A DNA stretch of 64,000 bases, taken from positions 1 through 64,000 of the IMG/VR virus record IMGVR_UViG_3300025764_000004. One strand, given 5' to 3'. The stretch's first letter is position 1. Each line of letters opens with the position of its first letter. This document shows positions 3,757 to 18,353 of the stretch, piece by piece. Below the pieces are notes generated by a model. That model was given only the letters and a program-made list of their open reading frames with translations. It ran no database searches and was not told where the DNA came from. The position numbers were made by a program, and so were the translations under genes. Source of the DNA: a virus.

Positions 3757-3971
3757 AATCATTTATTGTAATAATTGAGTCTGAAGGAAGAATGGGATAT
3801 TGCAGAGACGATTCTTTCTTAATGACAGACAAAGAAGGAAATACAAGAATATTTTCTTCAGAAGAATCTGCATATAATGAAGCAGAAAAAAGATATCCTG
3901 AACGAGGCTTGCCTTTAGAACTGAAATTAGATCCTACAAAATATCAGAAAATTAGAAAATCTAAATCATGA
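3753..3971 (+). CDS. hypothetical protein, 72 aa
   Basis: 72-aa protein, probably a small alpha/beta domain (begins MKSFIVIIESEGRMGY). It is ATGA-coupled to both neighbours. No recognised family. Confidence 0.6.
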   Translation: MKSFIVIIESEGRMGYCRDDSFLMTDKEGNTRIFSSEESAYNEAEKRYPERGLPLELKLDPTKYQKIRKSKS

Positions 3972-11587: not shown

Positions 11588-12829
11588 ATGATTGAGCGTA
11601 AAATATTGATTGGTATTGTTACCAGTACAGAGTACTGCAACCAGATTAAAGACATATTTGATTTAACCTTAATTGAGTCTGCGGCTGCGAAAAGAATGAT
11701 GTCGTGGATGTGGGATTTTTATAAAGAGAACAATGAAGCACCTAAACACGATGCAGTATTCTTATTCTGGAAACATGCAAAGCAATTGCCAAAAGATGTT
11801 GCTGAGGAGATTGAAGAAGAAATATTACCGTCTTTAGAAACAGAAAACGAAGCAGAGCCGTTCAATGTGTCTGCAATGGTTAAAGAAACCGAGAAATATT
11901 TCCAACAAAGAAAATTATCAGTATTAAGTGATAACATAAAAATATTAATTGAAAAAGATCAAGTAGAAGAAGCAGAAAAATTAGCCACAACATACAAGCC
12001 TTTTGAAACTGTTTCAAATAAAATAGATATTCACATTTTAAGTGCAACAGAGATAAGAGAACAAGAAATTGTAAAACCAATAACATTAATGTCACCGTGG
12101 TTGAAAGAAGGTCAAATGACAATCATTTATGGAAACTTTGGTAGTGGAAAATCATTATTGACAATTTTAGTTGCATACGTGTTAGGCTTAAGGGAGTATG
12201 ATGGAAAAGATTGTGAGATCAATAAATGGCAAGTGAAAACTCCAACAGGAACGCTTTACATTGATGGTGAAATAGGACAGCAAGAAATGGAAGAACGTAT
12301 AAAACAATTTGAATGGTTAGGCAGACAGTCTGTCAAACATCAAATGAAAGTTCTATCTATACCAGAATACCAATTAGAGACACAAGACACGTTTAATATG
12401 GTACTAAGAATAAATCAACTTAAAATAATTCAATGGCTAAAATCGCATCAGGAATACAAATTAGTTGTATTAGATTCTGTTAGTACGTTGTTTGGATTAG
12501 TTGAGGAGAATGATAACAGCGAATGGAACAACAAAATCAATCCATTCTTAAAGGATTTAAGAGCGTTAGGTGTAGCCTGCTTACTTTTACATCATGCCGG
12601 TAAGGATGGGAAACGTGGCTTGAGAGGAGCGAGTGCAATGGGAGCAATGGCACACAACATCTTTAGATTATCGGATCATAGTAAAAAAGAAAAAGACGAT
12701 GGCGAAGCTTGGTTCATTTTAAGCAAAGATAAACAGAGGCAAGCTGGATTTGGTTTTCGTTCTTTTGGAATTCATTATATGCAGAATAAAGATAAAACAA
12801 AAACGTTCTGGGAAATAACAGATTATTAA
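11588..12829 (+). CDS. RepA/DnaB-like RecA-fold ATPase
   Basis: 413 aa. The N-terminal 145 residues are helical, as in DnaB N-domains. The RecA core begins near 160 with Walker A YGNFGSGKS (181-189), Walker B LVVLD (292-296), and a LLLHHAGKDGKRGLRGASA motif (about 336-354) typical of AAA_25/RepA-type proteins. It is most likely the replicative helicase or its loader. It starts 2 nt after the initiator gene and is the last protein gene before the RNA locus. Confidence 0.82.
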   Translation: MIERKILIGIVTSTEYCNQIKDIFDLTLIESAAAKRMMSWMWDFYKENNEAPKHDAVFLFWKHAKQLPKDVAEEIEEEILPSLETENEAEPFNVSAMVKETEKYFQQRKLSVLSDNIKILIEKDQVEEAEKLATTYKPFETVSNKIDIHILSATEIREQEIVKPITLMSPWLKEGQMTIIYGNFGSGKSLLTILVAYVLGLREYDGKDCEINKWQVKTPTGTLYIDGEIGQQEMEERIKQFEWLGRQSVKHQMKVLSIPEYQLETQDTFNMVLRINQLKIIQWLKSHQEYKLVVLDSVSTLFGLVEENDNSEWNNKINPFLKDLRALGVACLLLHHAGKDGKRGLRGASAMGAMAHNIFRLSDHSKKEKDDGEAWFILSKDKQRQAGFGFRSFGIHYMQNKDKTKTFWEITDY

Positions 12830-12833
12830 AAAT

Positions 12834-12924
12834 GCTGAGTTATCCTTATGTGGTAGAGGAATAGATCGTTGGAGTGTTTTCCCAAAGTGATCGAATGGGA
12901 TGGGTTCGAACCCCATACTCAGCT
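12834..12924 (+). tRNA. tRNA-like gene with enlarged anticodon arm
   Basis: Acceptor stem GCTGAGT (12834-12840) pairs perfectly with ACTCAGC (12917-12923). The D arm is TCCT/AGGA with a TGGTAG loop. The T arm is ATGGG-TTCGAAC-CCCAT. The central part is abnormal. GATCG (12864-12868) pairs with TGATC (12888-12892), leaving a 19-nt loop that itself contains TTGG/CCAA (12869-12872, 12882-12885). No ordinary seven-base anticodon loop can be read, so I give no amino acid. It may carry a small insertion, be a decoy, or be decaying. No CCA is encoded beyond T-CA. Confidence 0.6.
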
Positions 12925-12985
12925 CAAGTTCATTCTAATTACGGAGTCTATTGTTTGGACAGGGGTTCGATTCCCCTCAGCTCCA

Positions 12986-13116
12986 CTCTTTCGCCAAGGA
13001 AGATGCTGTTGGATAGCTCCCAACTGATTTTAGGAGATTACGGGGTAGCCTAAAAAAGAATGACAAAAGTATTTGCAGGAGTTGCATTGACGTTTGTACT
13101 GCATTTGCCCGTCCAC
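12986..13116 (+). other. intervening segment of permuted tmRNA
   Basis: 131 nt between the acceptor and coding pieces. It contains hairpins GTTGG/CCAAC (around 13008-13024) and TTTTAGG/CCTAAAA (13028-13034, 13049-13055). CCCG-TCCA-CGGG straddles the mature 5' end at 13117. These may position cleavage by RNase P and other processing enzymes. The RNA ends are inferred, not observed. Confidence 0.6.
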
Positions 13117-13191
13117 GGGGCTGACTGGTTTTGACAACAATAAGGTGAGTAATTAGTGATTTAATTCACAAAGAATGTTCTGCCTACAACA

Positions 13192-13224
13192 GGCAATGAT
13201 TATCAAATGAAAATGGCTGCCTAA
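13192..13224 (+). other. tmRNA tag reading frame
   Basis: GGC AAT GAT TAT CAA ATG AAA ATG GCT GCC TAA reads GNDYQMKMAA-stop. An Ala-Ala end is the degradation signal of nearly all tmRNA tags. The resume codon cannot be proved; GGC is chosen because Bacteroidota tags begin with Gly. The GGC lies in a small hairpin TGCCT/AGGCA (13181-13195), so resumption one codon later is possible. Confidence 0.7.
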
Positions 13225-13244
13225 GAGGTTGTCAAATTCGAGCG

Positions 13245-13269
13245 TGGGCTGCTTTAAAAGCCCATTTTT
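13245..13269 (+). terminator. terminator of tmRNA transcript
   Basis: TGGGCT (13245-13250) and AGCCCA (13259-13264) form a perfect stem followed by TTTTT. It marks the 3' end of the tmRNA transcript. Confidence 0.8.
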
Positions 13270-13276
13270 AAAAAGT

Positions 13277-13429
13277 ATGCAAAAGAAAAATCAATATACT
13301 GATCTAGAAATACAATATGAATTATATCCATGTTTGTATTATTATTTCAACTTCACTACTAACTGGTTAATGAGTTATAGAGTTGCCATGAAGATTGAAT
13401 TAAACACAAACTTGATTTACTTGAATTAA
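13277..13429 (+). CDS. hypothetical protein, 50 aa, doubtful
   Basis: Tyr-rich 50-aa ORF from ATG 13277, just after the tmRNA terminator. The open frame extends into the tmRNA, which is not coding. No leader motif precedes it. Function unknown; it may be a chance frame. Confidence 0.35.
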   Translation: MQKKNQYTDLEIQYELYPCLYYYFNFTTNWLMSYRVAMKIELNTNLIYLN

Positions 13430-13493: not shown

Positions 13494-13883
13494 ATGTATG
13501 TCATAAGGAAAGAATTTCAAGCTAGTTGTATGCACCATTTATTAGGATTGCCTGAGGATCACCCGTGCGGACGAGTTCATGGGCATAACTATGTTATAGT
13601 GGTTGAGTTAAGATCAGAGACTTTAAACAAAATTGGATTTGTCAAAGATTATGGGGAACTTAACGTTATCAAAGAGTGGATTGACAAAACAATGGATCAT
13701 AGAGCTTTAAATGATGTATTCTCATTCAATCCAACAGCGGAAAATCTTGCAAAGCATTTATATGAAAGATTTGTAATGTTACTCGGGACTGATGGTATGT
13801 TTTTAAATGCTGTTGAAGTATCAGAGACACCCAAAACAAATTCACGTTTTTATAAAACATATAATGAGCACACAACTGATTAA
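13494..13883 (+). CDS. queD: 6-carboxytetrahydropterin synthase QueD
   Basis: 129-aa QueD (E. coli about 121 aa). It converts 7,8-dihydroneopterin triphosphate to 6-carboxy-tetrahydropterin in 7-deazaguanine synthesis. The Zn ligands His15, His29 and His31 (HGHNY) and catalytic Cys25 (HPCGRVHGH) are present. DHRALND (about 70-76), PTAENLA and VEVSETP near the end complete the active site. The gene overlaps queE by 20 nt. Its product feeds QueE and, with FolE at 16133, completes a path from GTP to CDG. Confidence 0.93.
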   Translation: MYVIRKEFQASCMHHLLGLPEDHPCGRVHGHNYVIVVELRSETLNKIGFVKDYGELNVIKEWIDKTMDHRALNDVFSFNPTAENLAKHLYERFVMLLGTDGMFLNAVEVSETPKTNSRFYKTYNEHTTD

Positions 13884-14619
13884 AGCATTTCCTGACTTTG
13901 TAAAAGAGGAGCCTTCAGATAGCTTTTTAAGAGTGTCTGAGTTCTTTTGCGACACAATTCAAGGGGAAGGAATACATATAGGACACCCGGCTACTTTCCT
14001 ACGTTTTCAGGGCTGTGAATTATATTGTATCTATTGTGACACTAAAGAAGTTTGGAGGCAAGGCAACCCGTATTCATTCGATGAATTGTACACAATTATG
14101 TCTTCTGAAGGGTTGCCTAATAAATTACTTCATGGACAACATTTAGTCATAACAGGAGGGAGTCCTTTGTTGCAACAAAATAGTCTGTATTGGTTCTTGA
14201 CAGGATTTATAGCAAAGTTTGGATTTAAACCTTATATTGAAGTAGAAAACGAATGTGTAATCCCACCTAATTTAGGCCTGCAAGGTTTAGTAGATTGCTG
14301 GAACAACTCTCCAAAATTAGCATCAAGCGGTGTTTCCTCTTTTATCAGAATTAAAAATGAAGTTCTGTATAAAATGTCAAATCTGCAAAATAGTTGGTTC
14401 AAGTTTGTTATAGGAAAAGATGACTGTTGGTGTGAGATAAACGATTTAATTGAAGCTGGATTGATTCGTAAAGAACAGGTTATACTTATGCCGGAAGGAG
14501 CTACTCGAGAAGAAATTGCAGAGCATAAAGAAGCGGTGTTAAATATGGCTATACAACATGGTGTAAGATATTCGGATCGTTTACATATTCAATTTTGGAA
14601 CAGAGAAATAGGTGTTTGA
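13864..14619 (+). CDS. queE: 7-carboxy-7-deazaguanine synthase QueE
   Basis: 251-aa radical-SAM enzyme converting 6-carboxy-tetrahydropterin to 7-carboxy-7-deazaguanine (CDG). It has QGEG (33-36) and the QueE cluster motif C51-x3-C55-x2-C58 (CELYCIYC), followed by VITGGSPLLQ, the glycine-rich SAM motif. The ATG at 13864 lies inside queD and gives the standard N-terminus; the longer frame is out of family. Followed by a hairpin and terminator, so queD-queE form one unit. Confidence 0.92.
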   Translation: MSTQLIKAFPDFVKEEPSDSFLRVSEFFCDTIQGEGIHIGHPATFLRFQGCELYCIYCDTKEVWRQGNPYSFDELYTIMSSEGLPNKLLHGQHLVITGGSPLLQQNSLYWFLTGFIAKFGFKPYIEVENECVIPPNLGLQGLVDCWNNSPKLASSGVSSFIRIKNEVLYKMSNLQNSWFKFVIGKDDCWCEINDLIEAGLIRKEQVILMPEGATREEIAEHKEAVLNMAIQHGVRYSDRLHIQFWNREIGV

Positions 14620-14650
14620 AAAAGATGTGTATTAGTTGGTTTAGTTAGAT

Positions 14651-14672
14651 CAAGAAACCTGGAAGTTTCTTG
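14651..14672 (+). promoter_or_regulatory. 3' UTR stem-loop after queE
   Basis: CAAGAAAC (14651-14658) pairs perfectly with GTTTCTTG (14665-14672), loop CTGGAA. No T-run follows, so it is not the terminator itself. It may stabilise the mRNA. Confidence 0.4.
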
Positions 14673-14690
14673 TGAGTTCTTTCAGGCTTA

Positions 14691-14717
14691 CCTCCTGTCC
14701 TTCGGGCAGGGGGTTTT
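14691..14717 (+). terminator. rho-independent terminator
   Basis: CCTCCTGTCC, a TTCG tetraloop, GGCAGGGGG and TTTT. Strong stem with one bulge; ends the queD-queE transcript. Confidence 0.82.
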
Positions 14718-14737
14718 GGCATCAAAAGAGATAGGTT

Positions 14738-14812
14738 ATGAAAGATATAGATTTTGAACCATTTGATCTTATATGTTATCCCGAAGTAGTACCAGAATCA
14801 GAAAGAGAATAA
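14738..14812 (+). CDS. acidic micro-ORF, 24 aa
   Basis: MKDIDFEPFDLICYPE..., 24 codons, acidic. It sits between a terminator and the next gene and ends 3 nt before that gene's ATG. Its tight spacing is the only support. Confidence 0.3.
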   Translation: MKDIDFEPFDLICYPEVVPESERE

Positions 14813-14815
14813 GTT

Positions 14816-15022
14816 ATGAAAAAACAAAAAAGATTTGAAATTGGGGATTTTTTAAAAACAAGAATAACCGGCATGCACCCTGAAATTATAATTTCAGATG
14901 CACCTCCAACTAAATGGCAGATATTTTTCTACAAAGTAAATCCATTTAAAAGATTTTTCAATAATAAAGAACGAGAAAGAGTTTATAAATGGTATTTATC
15001 ATCAAAAGAAGGTCGTTTATGA
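14816..15022 (+). CDS. basic hypothetical protein, 68 aa
   Basis: Lys/Arg/Phe-rich 68-aa protein. No known motif. ATGA-coupled to the next gene at 15019. Confidence 0.55.
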   Translation: MKKQKRFEIGDFLKTRITGMHPEIIISDAPPTKWQIFFYKVNPFKRFFNNKERERVYKWYLSSKEGRL

Positions 15023-15291
15023 ATCAAAAACAAAAAGATCAGTTAAGACTGGCAGCTTTACTCATACACGAAGCTGAAAGTATTATAAAAGATGTTAAAT
15101 CAGAAGAACAAAAATCTATTAACGATCTAAAAATAAATAAGGCTGTTGATTTAAACAGAACATCTGAAGAGGTAATAGCTGCTCTAGAAGATGCGGAATA
15201 CTCATTAAAAGATGTAACTTCCAACCTTTCTACGACACTTGTAGAAGATTTTATTTGTATAATAGGTGTAAGAAATGTTTTTTACAATTAA
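15019..15291 (+). CDS. helical hypothetical protein, 90 aa
   Basis: Predicted coiled-coil or helical-bundle protein: Lys/Glu-rich with heptad-like Leu/Ile spacing over residues 8-70. The ATG at 15019 forms the ATGA junction; an upstream ATG at 14989 would overlap the preceding gene. Confidence 0.55.
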   Translation: MNQKQKDQLRLAALLIHEAESIIKDVKSEEQKSINDLKINKAVDLNRTSEEVIAALEDAEYSLKDVTSNLSTTLVEDFICIIGVRNVFYN

Positions 15292-15323
15292 GAATTAATT
15301 CATTAATCATTAAAATTGTTATT

Positions 15324-16058
15324 ATGAAAGCAAAATTGAAAGACTTGCAAGTCGCTGCACAAGAATTGAATGCAATCGGGATCGACCCGGAAATTGATGC
15401 TGCATCTACGGATGTAGAAGTATTGTTTGCTGGAATCAAAGATTCTTTGAGTGTTATTGAAGACACAGACGAGTTCACAACAAAGACTCAATCTGTTATT
15501 GACGAGGTTACAGAAATTGTTGAAGCCGACAAAGTTCCTGAAGAAAAACCAAAACGTCAGGTGAAACCTGTTGCTGCTCCGGTTGTTGCTAAAAAAGAAG
15601 TGGTAGAAGAGGATGCAGAAACAACTCTTTATGACAAAGTAAAAGCTACCGCAAAGGTTGCTGATTTGAAAGCTATTGTTGAAGAAGAAGATGACTTCAA
15701 AAAGATCCGGAAAGCAATCGACACGTTCAAAAATCCATTTATCCTGAAACGTGCAATGTTGGACATTCTGGAAGAATCTGATCCGAAACTTGCTACAGGT
15801 GCTGCTGAAAAGAAAGCTGCAAAAACAGCAAAGAAAGAAGTAGATCCAAACGCTCCAAAGAAAAAGAATCCTTTTGTAAAGGTTGCCGGACAATTGTCTA
15901 ATCTGGAAGTTGCTGAGAAGCTGTTATCAGAAAAAGCTGATCCGAAAACCATCTATGCTACATTTACCAAAGTGTATGAAGGCAAAGCTGGAGCAGACGA
16001 AAAGTACATTAAAGGCCGAGCAGACATTTACATGAAAATTGCTGCAAAAGGTAAGTAA
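15324..16058 (+). CDS. Ala/Lys-rich protein, paralogue of 1747 gene product
   Basis: 244-aa protein. Helical N-terminus (1-80), Ala/Lys/Glu-rich linker (80-110 and 160-185) and an ordered C-terminal domain (about 190-244) ending YIKGRADIYMKIAAKGK. That domain matches the end of the 1747-2385 product. Charged repeats and abundant Lys suggest nucleic-acid binding. It has its own strong terminator at 16084-16120 and a TTGTATAATA motif upstream, so it is probably highly expressed alone. A virion-internal or DNA-condensing role is possible. Confidence 0.75.
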   Translation: MKAKLKDLQVAAQELNAIGIDPEIDAASTDVEVLFAGIKDSLSVIEDTDEFTTKTQSVIDEVTEIVEADKVPEEKPKRQVKPVAAPVVAKKEVVEEDAETTLYDKVKATAKVADLKAIVEEEDDFKKIRKAIDTFKNPFILKRAMLDILEESDPKLATGAAEKKAAKTAKKEVDPNAPKKKNPFVKVAGQLSNLEVAEKLLSEKADPKTIYATFTKVYEGKAGADEKYIKGRADIYMKIAAKGK

Positions 16059-16083
16059 CTAAGTATTGATTTAAGTATTTATG

Positions 16084-16120
16084 AAGCCCAGAGTTTAATT
16101 GATTACTCTGGGCTTCTTTT
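16084..16120 (+). terminator. rho-independent terminator
   Basis: AAGCCCAGAGT (16084-16094) pairs perfectly over 11 bp with ACTCTGGGCTT (16105-16115), then CTTTT. It lies 13 nt before folE and separates the two transcripts. Confidence 0.85.
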
Positions 16121-16132
16121 AAACTTTTTATA

Positions 16133-16675
16133 ATGACACCAGAAGTACTAATTTATAAAATGCTCTTAGAAATTGGAGAGGATCCTGACAGAGAAGGATT
16201 GCTAGAAACTCCAAAACGAATTGTAAAATCCTGGAAAGAACTTTACGCAGGGTATAATCAAAATCCTGCAGACTTGTTTACTGTATTTGAAGCAGGAACA
16301 TACAATCAGATTGTACTTCTTAAGGATATTGAAGTTTATAGTCTTTGTGAACACCACGGTCTGCCGTTCTTTGGAAAAGCTCATGTTGCATACATACCAA
16401 ATGAAAAAGTTATAGGTATTTCCAAATTAGCACGTCTAGTAGATGTGTTTGCAAGGAGAATGCAAATTCAAGAACGAATCGGAGAACAAGTTACTTCTGC
16501 ATTAATGGAATATCTCCAACCAAAAGGTGCCGCTTGTATTATCCAAGCCTGTCATATGTGTATGAGAATGCGAGGAGTCAACAAACAACAATCTACAATG
16601 ATCACCTCTTCGATGAAAGGGGAATTTTTGACAAATTTATCAGCTAAACAAGAATTAATGTCAATAATAAAATGA
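16133..16675 (+). CDS. folE: GTP cyclohydrolase I (FolE)
   Basis: 180-aa FolE, which converts GTP to 7,8-dihydroneopterin triphosphate, the first step of 7-deazaguanine and folate synthesis. It shows PDREGLLETPKR near the N-terminus, LCEHHGLP (Cys72, His75 zinc ligands), VIGISKLARLVDVFARRMQIQER, and CHMCMRMRGV (Cys140-Cys143, third ligand). The length is slightly below the E. coli enzyme (222 aa), as in other phage and short bacterial forms. It overlaps the next gene (ATGA) in an operon leading to dpdA. Confidence 0.94.
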   Translation: MTPEVLIYKMLLEIGEDPDREGLLETPKRIVKSWKELYAGYNQNPADLFTVFEAGTYNQIVLLKDIEVYSLCEHHGLPFFGKAHVAYIPNEKVIGISKLARLVDVFARRMQIQERIGEQVTSALMEYLQPKGAACIIQACHMCMRMRGVNKQQSTMITSSMKGEFLTNLSAKQELMSIIK

Positions 16676-17001
16676 AAAAATTTGTAACTATACGAACACA
16701 GTTTCCGGCCGTACATTGTTGGCCTGATTGTAATATCCCATCAGTAGGGTATCTTGTATTTCCACATCGTCATTTATTTGTTATAAAAATGAGTTGGGAA
16801 GTGTCAGATAATAATCGCCAAATAGAATTTATTTCTAAAAAACAAGATGTGAACAAATACATTGCAAAACATTTTTATGATAAAGATTTGCGTTCTATGT
16901 CTTGCGAAGACATTGCAGAAAAACTGCTAAACAGATTCAATGCTGACTCTATATCTGTATTTGAGGACGGGGAGAATGGTTGTGAGATATTTAAAGACTA
17001 A
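16672..17001 (+). CDS. QueD/PTPS-fold paralogue without catalytic Cys
   Basis: 109 aa. The pattern F-x-A-V-H15 ... P-H32-R-H34-L-F matches the three zinc histidines of the 6-pyruvoyl-tetrahydropterin synthase/QueD fold. IEFISKKQDVNKYI stands where QueD has FVKDYGELN, and MSCEDIAEKLLNRF where QueD has PTAENLAKHLYERF. The catalytic Cys (four residues before the first His of HxH) is replaced by Leu28; Cys16 and Cys20 lie elsewhere. This assignment is my alignment by eye. It may be a pterin- or deazaguanine-binding enzyme of altered chemistry. It sits between folE and the radical-SAM gene. Confidence 0.6.
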   Translation: MKKFVTIRTQFPAVHCWPDCNIPSVGYLVFPHRHLFVIKMSWEVSDNNRQIEFISKKQDVNKYIAKHFYDKDLRSMSCEDIAEKLLNRFNADSISVFEDGENGCEIFKD

Positions 17002-17003
17002 GA

Positions 17004-18353
17004 ATGAAAAAATCAATCAATATTATCGACCCGTGCTCCACTGAGCAAAATCGAGGTAGTTTCTGTTATTCACCATATTTGTGTTATAATGGAATGGCTT
17101 TCACTCTTGATGCTAATTTAATCGAATCATTCCAACCAGAAGATTTAGACAGTATTCCTGATGCGGACATACAACTTGTTTGTCTGTGGTCCTATCCTCA
17201 AATAGAATCTTCGATGATGTTAGCTATGTCACTTCCGTTTATGTACGGTAAAGACAATGTCTATTTTGTTGGGTATTCACCATTAATCAAACAATTAGGT
17301 TTACATCATATTGAAGAAAAGTTAGGATTTGATCCATTACAAGATGAAGCATTCCTTGTTCATGCAATGAGTCGATACCCTGTAAATTATCACAAGTTTA
17401 AACGTTTGTTATTATCCGATTGTGATATGCATCTACGTCATTTAGATGCAGGAGAAAAGGTTTATCCACTGTTCACTTCATACGGTTGTGACCAAGGATG
17501 TTCATTTTGCCCAAGTACAACTAATTGCGGACGTAGGAGAATTGAAGTTCCTTTGTCTAAAGTTTGTACAATGTTAGATCAGTGTATCAAACAAGGCATA
17601 AAATCTATTCATTTTACAGATGAAGATTTCTTTTACGACATCAACCGGGCATTTAAAATCTTGTTAATGTTACAAGGAAAAGGAATGCATCTGATTGCAT
17701 TAGGATCTGCTGAAGCTGTTTCTTACTTTATTGCTAAATATGGTGTTGACCCAATTAAAAATGCAGGTTTAGAAGTGATTGAGATTGGATTTGAATCAGG
17801 GGATGCAGAAGTGTCTAAGAAAATGGGACATGGTAAAAGTTTGTCTGCTTGCGAAGAACTTGCACAGATGCAAGATTGGATTCCATTTCGTATATTCTGG
17901 TTAGTACTTACCTTCTTTCCAGGTGAGACAATTCATAGTTTAAATGAGACAGGACGCTTCATGTTAAAGTACGGATTTGAACAAGAAGAGGTGATGGGGA
18001 GGCTTCGTACAAATGGAACAAAGATTGGCCTTGGGCAATTTATGCAATGGTATGATGGTATAGCTATGGCTAAATCTTTAGAAAAAAATGGAATAAAATT
18101 AACGCAAAGGCCTGTAAGATTGATTCCTTCGTATGTTCCAAATTCGTTTTTGGAAAGTATAATTACTGAAATACACGAAGAAGCTATTGAAAAAACAATA
18201 CCTTATTTAGAGCTATACAATACTGCTTTGCCTAATAAACCTCTTGAAATCGGCAGAAAAATAAGCTATTATTTAGAAGATATGCCTATATACGGTTACA
18301 TACGCACATTAACTGCCTTAGCAATATTAGCCAGAGGAGGAGTCATACGATGA
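17004..18353 (+). CDS. radical SAM enzyme of unknown substrate
   Basis: 449-aa protein. The radical-SAM cluster motif is C162-x3-C166-x2-C169 (CDQGCSFC). HFTDEDFF, IALGSAEA and EIGFESG follow as barrel strands, as in B12-binding-type radical-SAM proteins. The N-terminal 150 residues have alternating beta/alpha pattern resembling the fold of that group, but the cobalamin DxHxxG signature is not seen. It is co-transcribed with folE and dpdA. Probably it acts on the deazaguanine base or nucleotide; the substrate is unknown. Confidence 0.75.
   Translation: MKKSINIIDPCSTEQNRGSFCYSPYLCYNGMAFTLDANLIESFQPEDLDSIPDADIQLVCLWSYPQIESSMMLAMSLPFMYGKDNVYFVGYSPLIKQLGLHHIEEKLGFDPLQDEAFLVHAMSRYPVNYHKFKRLLLSDCDMHLRHLDAGEKVYPLFTSYGCDQGCSFCPSTTNCGRRRIEVPLSKVCTMLDQCIKQGIKSIHFTDEDFFYDINRAFKILLMLQGKGMHLIALGSAEAVSYFIAKYGVDPIKNAGLEVIEIGFESGDAEVSKKMGHGKSLSACEELAQMQDWIPFRIFWLVLTFFPGETIHSLNETGRFMLKYGFEQEEVMGRLRTNGTKIGLGQFMQWYDGIAMAKSLEKNGIKLTQRPVRLIPSYVPNSFLESIITEIHEEAIEKTIPYLELYNTALPNKPLEIGRKISYYLEDMPIYGYIRTLTALAILARGGVIR

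Follow-up and report, generated by a model that had tools for sequence, protein, structure and literature searches.

A circularly permuted tmRNA gene in a phage genome, probably derived from a Bacteroidota-type one-piece tmRNA

The first 64,000 nucleotides of IMG/VR virus record IMGVR_UViG_3300025764_000004 (this whole stretch is called the window here) encode a circularly permuted, two-piece transfer-messenger RNA (tmRNA) at 12925-13269. Descriptions of permuted tmRNAs come from three main bacterial clades, to which the phage-borne ones have also been linked. Where does this gene belong? We put at about 0.75 the probability that this is a functional, permuted phage tmRNA gene that descends from a one-piece tmRNA of Bacteroidota (Bacteroidia type) and belongs to a phage-borne lineage apart from the alpha-, beta- and cyanobacterial ones. 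We also lean, by little more than even odds, towards a stronger form of this proposal: a fourth permutation made independently by Bacteroidota phages and stripped to the tRNA-like domain, helix P2 and the tag without pseudoknots, giving a minimal, phage-restricted rescue RNA with phage-specific tags while the hosts use one-piece tmRNA. Two-piece tmRNA, its carriage by phages and the crAss-like examples in GenBank are already known; recognition of a Bacteroidota-type permuted lineage was not found in the open-licence literature (the supplementary tables of PMC11915505 lie outside that search).

Identification and architecture of the gene

A preliminary description, made from the letters of the window, had proposed a phage-encoded permuted tmRNA and named ARAGORN and the permuted Rfam models as checks. 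Both bear it out, as does the covariation described below. ARAGORN calls a permuted tmRNA at 12894-13315 with the tag that had been read, GNDYQMKMAA, and RF04321, the Rfam model of permuted tmRNA, scores 74.3 bits where its cut-off is 47 (E 2.2e-12 for the whole 64-kb window). The standard one-piece model RF00023 reaches 27.8 bits, under its cut-off of 47. Among the alpha, beta and cyano lineage models (RF01849, RF01850 and RF01851) none passes its cut-off and only RF01850 (beta_tmRNA) is listed, the best of the older clan models with 38.7 bits, far under a cut-off of 84. The Rfam scan gave no family besides tmRNA over cut-off in the window. A second contig of the same virus (L008, 4,487 bp) carries an identical permuted arrangement and tag. 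In the window the 3' half of the tRNA-like domain precedes the 5' half, and the tag frame lies in the second part:

12925-13269, plus strand: permuted (two-piece) tmRNA gene (sequence reading, ARAGORN, RF04321)
12935-12985, plus strand: acceptor (3') piece (RF04321 match, covariation, distal-helix permutation test)
12935-12942, plus strand: 3' strand of distal P2, CTAATTAC, pairing with 13149-13156
12949-12955, plus strand: 3' strand of proximal P2, TATTGTT, pairing with 13136-13142
12961-12977, plus strand: T arm, within the acceptor piece
12978-12984, plus strand: 3' strand of the acceptor stem, CAGCTCC, followed by discriminator A at 12985
12986-13116, plus strand: intervening sequence of 131 nt, expected to leave the precursor (an insert in the RF04321 alignment)
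13117-13135, plus strand: 5' end of the coding piece, GGGGCTGACTGGTTTTGAC, made of acceptor 5' strand GGGGCTG and D-loop-like ACTGGTTTTGAC
13136-13142, plus strand: 5' strand of proximal P2, AACAATA, pairing with 12949-12955
13149-13156, plus strand: 5' strand of distal P2, GTAATTAG, pairing with 12935-12942
13192-13224, plus strand: tag frame GNDYQMKMAA (13192-13221, resume codon GGC) and stop TAA (13222-13224)
13245-13269, plus strand: intrinsic terminator TGGGCT...AGCCCA followed by five T, shortly after the tag frame (read from the sequence)

The acceptor stem has 7 bp and contains the alanine identity pair G3.U70; CCA is not encoded after A 12985. This stem, the CAGCTCC-A end at 12978-12985 and the 5' end at 13117 can all be read directly, as the preliminary description had them, and its two P2 pairings are exact to the base. 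The tag ending in TAA and the terminator behind it are likewise confirmed; the terminator stem folds with -11.8 kcal/mol (z -2.15), and similar hairpins lie close after the stop codon in several homologues. The mature 5' end of the acceptor piece is predicted to fall at 12925-12935. The intervening sequence, which measures 41-214 nt in the homologues where its length was taken, folds no better than shuffled sequence (z 0.16).

Covariation of the tRNA-like domain

Is this structure kept across the family? A gap-free alignment of ten distinct permuted phage homologues shows standard pairs in 94.7% of cells of the acceptor, T and proximal P2 helices (100%, 98% and 87%, respectively), with changes on both sides at nine pairs. 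The covariation score is 0.474 compared with 0.165 for shuffled alignments (0 of 500 shuffles reach it), and it falls to 0.166 or less when the partner strand is slid by one to three columns. Pair 3 is GU in all ten homologues, so that G3.U70 is invariant, and the T-loop GGTTCGANTCC is conserved across the alignment. In the crAss-like subgroup the last two acceptor pairs change jointly, from T-A and G-C to A-T and T-A. Distal P2, of 7-9 bp, differs in sequence in most members, and it is stronger for a gene's own two strands than for strands cross-matched between genes (p 0.0002). Pair counts, covariation and the distal P2 test together thus show that the structure is real and is kept by compensatory change throughout the family. 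A 9-bp pairing suggested by the minimum free energy fold (TTTGACAAC with GTTGTCAAA) was dropped, being without counterpart in most homologues.

A family of phage genes and the sampled Bacteroidota genomes

Pattern, similarity and covariance-model searches gathered 16 more permuted tmRNAs of this type and one candidate. The pattern scans of viral contigs with the 5' motif GGGGCNTNNTGG were able to find the cr125-like subgroup only, and the shortest spacer range was scanned with GGGGCNTNNTGG alone. Members include the crAss-like phages cr125_1, cr114_1, cr10_1, cr50_1, cr60_1 and cr53_1, which span five genera, contig L006 from a faecal phage, an isolate (Chryseobacterium phage MA9V-3) and seven IMG/VR contigs (L030, L031, L041, L044, L048, L049 and L050). 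In GenBank, MA9V-3 and most of the crAss entries bear the plain annotation SsrA. The preliminary description knew of no permuted tmRNA in a Bacteroidota phage; this was too strong, as these genes had been deposited with their permutation unstated.

And the bacterial genomes? One-piece tmRNA scores over cut-off in 60 of 61 sampled genomes of the phylum Bacteroidota, in agreement with the expectation that host tmRNAs there are one-piece, and permutation is absent from all 60 of the genes that were read. Among 395 genomes of the phylum a single one (G255) has a permuted match over cut-off, and this match is a prophage, with predicted tag GKVIQMNNAPVRLAA. It lies on a 1.6-Mb contig near genes for rII-like proteins, primase, helicases and DNA polymerase; an integrase is found some 11 kb off. 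A different contig of G255 carries a normal one-piece tmRNA, so the two forms occur together in a single genome.

The candidate, cr56_1 (L225:539-1203), has an annotated endonuclease gene between the tmRNA halves; this gene has an in-frame TAG (Gln under code 15) and no Pfam match, and the T arm there looks altered. In cr114_1 a called tRNA-His gene (L224:1245-1317) lies within the intervening sequence of the tmRNA. RAGATH-9, -20 or -22 RNAs lie near crAss tmRNA genes (L002, which is cr125_1, at 3791-3959; L006; L222-L225); the tmRNA start as called in cr125_1 overlaps with RAGATH-9, and a Hatchet ribozyme is found at L002:2432-2560. Several one-piece phage tmRNAs have a tag frame apparently far longer than called (L039:1221-1665, L042:452-896, L046:8101-8550 and, at 870-1229 of L217 and L218, Cellulophaga phages phi38:1 and Calle_1), all with a Bacteroidota-type tRNA-like domain; L039 has a resume-like AACGGAAATACAATG giving GNTMSTQETAQEVANMSVVHNILNGSDDLVAPVATVKLAMAA. 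Two other one-piece tmRNAs (L033:2081-2483 and L038:9385-9792) have the unusual ARAGORN tags EYDYSPMVAVTNDEPTYAYA and EYDYSAAPISRKADVQQTYAYA. Alcaligenes phage vB_Af_QDWS595 (L226) carries, at 1148-1524 in a dense tRNA cluster, an unannotated beta-type permuted tmRNA (RF04321 111 bits, RF01850 93.8 bits, tag ANDNVYAAAA).

Origin of the permutation

From which tmRNA does the phage gene descend? The permuted references were cyanophages L003, L021, L032 and L037, pelagiphage L212, Alcaligenes phage L226 and the Rfam beta consensus. The 5' arm measures 19 nt in 16 of the 17 phage rows compared with 20-21 nt in the references, and the first tag residue is G in 16 of the 17 rows versus A in the cyano, alpha and beta references. 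The window has the Bacteroidota-type 5' arm, 19 nt ending in TTTTGAC, together with a glycine resume codon. A scan of 84,980 species genomes placed the 22-nt 5' motif GGGGCTGACTGGTTTTGACAGC at no fewer than 119 sites, and the matches listed are all Bacteroidota-titled except one Chlorobiota metagenome-assembled genome. The window matches the motif through 13136 (20th base, ...GACAAC) and departs at 13137; several relatives match it in full. In a sample of 60 one-piece genes chosen without this motif, nine combine 19 nt, TTTTGAC and G, so the combination is typical of part of the phylum and not of all of it. The pre-tag and tag DNA of the window (GCCTACAACAGGCAATGATTAT..AATGGCTGCCTAA) also aligns with that of L072 (GCCAACAACTGGCAACGATTAC..AATGGCCGCTTAA), a Bacteroidales one-piece gene with tag GNDYNFAMAA. 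A separate, Bacteroidota-derived origin is favoured, as likely though unproven. The phage genes may go back to one permutation event or to several. The suggestion that the gene was acquired by the phage or evolved in it stands: its sequence is Bacteroidota-type, Bacteroidota genomes are one-piece, and relatives with the same gene neighbourhood (see below) do without it.

The tag and the reduced form of the RNA

Proteolysis tags end in a hydrophobic residue plus AA- or VA-type termini. The tags of all 17 phage rows end in alanine before the stop, most of them with AA or VA after a hydrophobic residue; tags that differ from that of the window include GNFYVTDYTRIAA and GNVIDINKYVAKLEVAA, the latter from MA9V-3. 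Many phage genes have the pre-tag motif AAC-N-GGCAA. Counted from the 5' end, the tag starts at 59-63 nt in the phage genes, at 75 in the window and at 89-99 in one-piece genes with a G-first tag.

Is the coding piece correspondingly simple? Typical two-piece coding pieces contain pseudoknots 1 and 2 (PK1 and PK2; reviewed in PMC3985003). A simple search of the spacer between P2 and tag, for stems of at least 4 bp with at least two G-C pairs, gave no PK1-like pseudoknot in any of ten phage genes, and the same search was positive in 101 of 106 one-piece controls with G-first tags. It likewise detected no PK1 in the cyano- and alpha-type phage genes L003, L021 and L212; loss of PK1 is therefore not claimed as unique to this family, and pseudoknot reduction may be a general phage trend. 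No downstream pseudoknot region was detected in the phage RNA. In some of the crAss group the tag is followed by a conserved segment, ACGGCTAAGCTAATGTCGT, which the window lacks.

Genomic context

The gene has a replicative ATPase gene (11588-12829) before it and a QueD-like gene (13494-13883) after it, the latter followed by a QueE-like radical-SAM gene; no integrase is named near the tmRNA. The ATPase is common to 13 loci, namely L008 and 12 relatives at 51-61% identity. In the 12 relatives neither ARAGORN nor Rfam gives a tmRNA, and RF04321 has no match in six whole records of them. Two (L012 and L013) keep the order ATPase, QueD, QueE with a different sequence at the tmRNA position, where there is no RNA family match at all. 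As relatives with the same neighbours are without it, the tmRNA is an accessory insert. The genes at 13494-18353, for QueD (PTPS), a QueE-like radical-SAM protein, FolE and a further radical-SAM protein, suggest 7-deazaguanine synthesis, perhaps for DNA modification.

Directly upstream lies a further RNA-like feature:

12834-12925, plus strand: tRNA-like element with a 7-bp acceptor (GCTGAGT/ACTCAGC), a T arm and an enlarged anticodon arm

It folds with -26.5 kcal/mol (z -1.46) and ends about 10 bases upstream of the acceptor piece. The enlarged arm is without a clear anticodon; ARAGORN makes no call under default settings and, under relaxed ones, a call with an ambiguous anticodon. In L181 a called tRNA-Met occupies the equivalent position.

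As for the host of the phage, which we infer, tape-measure, portal and polymerase proteins do not fix it, because their matches among isolated phages are distant and taxonomically mixed; against the 395 Bacteroidota genomes the ATPase has weak matches only.

Proposed mechanism

How would such a gene work? In two-piece tmRNA, RNase P and tRNase Z cut the precursor, the halves anneal, alanyl-tRNA synthetase charges the RNA and the stalled ribosome moves to the tag (PMC3985003). In the phage, a single transcript would join the upstream replication genes, the tRNA-like element and the tmRNA. Enzymes of tRNA maturation would cut it, RNase P at 13117 and RNase Z or exonucleases, with CCA addition, at 12985; the 131-nt spacer would be discarded, and processing of the tRNA-like neighbour could make the 5' end of the acceptor piece. 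The two pieces would then anneal through the acceptor stem and P2, and host alanyl-tRNA synthetase would charge the RNA by way of G3.U70. SmpB is absent from nine phage records, so host SmpB would be needed to bring the charged RNA to stalled ribosomes whose mRNA is truncated. Such a ribosome would move to the tag frame, add Ala-GNDYQMKMAA, stop at TAA and be released, and the hydrophobic-Ala-Ala end of the tag would mark the product for a ClpXP-type protease. The benefit is likely to be ribosome recycling during infection, at a time when mRNA is being broken and the host may lose its tmRNA gene.

Alternative readings

Could the phages have inherited a gene that was already permuted, from the alpha, beta or cyano lineage, and that came to resemble Bacteroidota tmRNA later, by recombination or by adaptation to host SmpB and alanyl-tRNA synthetase? 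We regard this as unlikely. Other phages commonly carry permuted tmRNAs (PMC9004378), phages swap tRNA-type genes, and the best older clan model is the beta one, though its score is far under cut-off. Against it, the 5' arm length, TTTTGAC, the glycine resume codon and the pre-tag motif fit Bacteroidia one-piece genes and no permuted reference, and the structured post-tag segment of cyano permuted genes is absent in the window. The trees speak less clearly: a single clade for all permuted genes was rejected with 147 rows (approximately unbiased test, p 0.012) and not, at the 0.05 level, with 154 rows (p 0.096). The latter value is one of several points that weigh against a Bacteroidota-derived phage lineage of working genes. 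The tests do not establish the phage genes as one clade (p 0.111, then 0.048), and all of them rest on 98 usable columns and resolve little. Nearest identity favours one-piece genes partly through unequal row numbers (130 one-piece rows compared with 7 known permuted ones), and even the beta-type gene of L226 shares 78% identity with a one-piece row from Bacteroidales; little weight was given to these comparisons. The Bacteroidota promoter consensus TTTG-N-TANNTTTG is not matched close to the gene, nor is it over-represented in the window, and, as to the host, the portal protein has no relative in the 395 Bacteroidota genomes. In the tag codons of the crAss genes the excess of synonymous changes is weak (6 of 12, p 0.07), and the RNA, its processing and the tagging are predictions from the genes for every family member.

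Does the RNA tag at all? The main functional rival is an RNA that is made without tagging, its tRNA-like domain sequestering host SmpB or alanyl-tRNA synthetase and so inhibiting host trans-translation. The tmRNA of mycobacteriophage DS6A consists of a tRNA-like domain only, and a DS6A-like molecule, when expressed, inhibits E. coli tmRNA (PMC11915505, PMC4131195); the missing PK1 and downstream pseudoknots of the phage RNA would suit such a role. The short tag frame with its final alanine, kept in 17 of 17 rows together with a resume motif, argues the other way, and the two-piece tmRNA of Caulobacter tags despite fewer pseudoknots (PMC3985003); such an inhibitor seems quite improbable here. 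A decaying or passenger copy with no current function, acquired by accident, for instance when a phage integrated at ssrA, is less probable still. It would account for the patchy distribution and for phages with the same flanking genes and no tmRNA; it does not fit the compensatory changes that preserve every helix across highly divergent members, the invariant G3.U70, the intact tag frame, or a site between replication ATPase and QueD where no integrase is named. Finally, the window belongs to an IMG/VR virus record, and one might think of a misassembly or of a chance juxtaposition of tRNA fragments. The E-value of 2e-12 and the same architecture in unrelated phages, including an isolate, leave this a negligible chance, and covariation together with the separate contig L008 refutes it. 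A working tmRNA gene derived from a Bacteroidota one-piece form is the reading we prefer.

Significance and comparison with known systems

If a separate phage-borne lineage of Bacteroidota type is true, permutation can recur outside cellular genomes. The way this happens could then be investigated, as there are phage tmRNAs in one piece whose ends are of the same type. A coding piece apparently without PK1 and the later pseudoknots would offer a natural test of a minimal tagging tmRNA. Since hosts keep their one-piece tmRNA, and both forms occur in G255, two RNAs and their tags are distinguishable within the same cell, and the part that trans-translation plays for the phage can be tested directly.

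How does the gene compare with what is known? The alpha, beta and cyano two-piece tmRNAs (RF01849, RF01850 and RF01851, merged in RF04321) share with it the order of 3' piece, spacer and 5' piece, an acceptor stem and P2 formed between the pieces, the T arm, and a tag in the 5' piece. Unlike them, the window has a Bacteroidia-type tRNA-like domain (19-nt 5' arm, TTTTGAC) and a G-first tag and, unlike typical two-piece RNAs with PK1 and PK2 (PMC3985003), it has no PK1 that was found and little but a terminator after the tag. Permuted tmRNAs are well documented in marine phages: in one survey 53 of 133 unique phage tmRNA structures were permuted, 50 of them aquatic (PMC9004378). Those of Methylophilales phage Melnitz, pelagimyophages and cyanophages are phage-borne with an intact tag, as in the window; unlike the window gene, they are reported to follow alpha, cyano and gamma lineages, and Melnitz adds a glutamine riboswitch (PMC9004378), whereas the window has no other Rfam family over cut-off. 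The SsrA genes of crAss-like phages (cr125_1, cr114_1, cr10_1, cr50_1 and cr60_1) and of MA9V-3 are permuted by ARAGORN, RF04321 or both, with a short resume spacer of 59-62 nt and a G-first tag, and several have adjacent tRNAs. The one-piece gene L072 from Bacteroidales differs in being one piece, in a tag start at 95 nt versus 75, in a PK1-like pseudoknot and in about 240 nt between tag and 3' end. It shares with the window the 5' arm, the pre-tag motif GCC-ACAAC-GGCAA-GATTA, the first tag residues GNDY and 78% identity over the compared columns.
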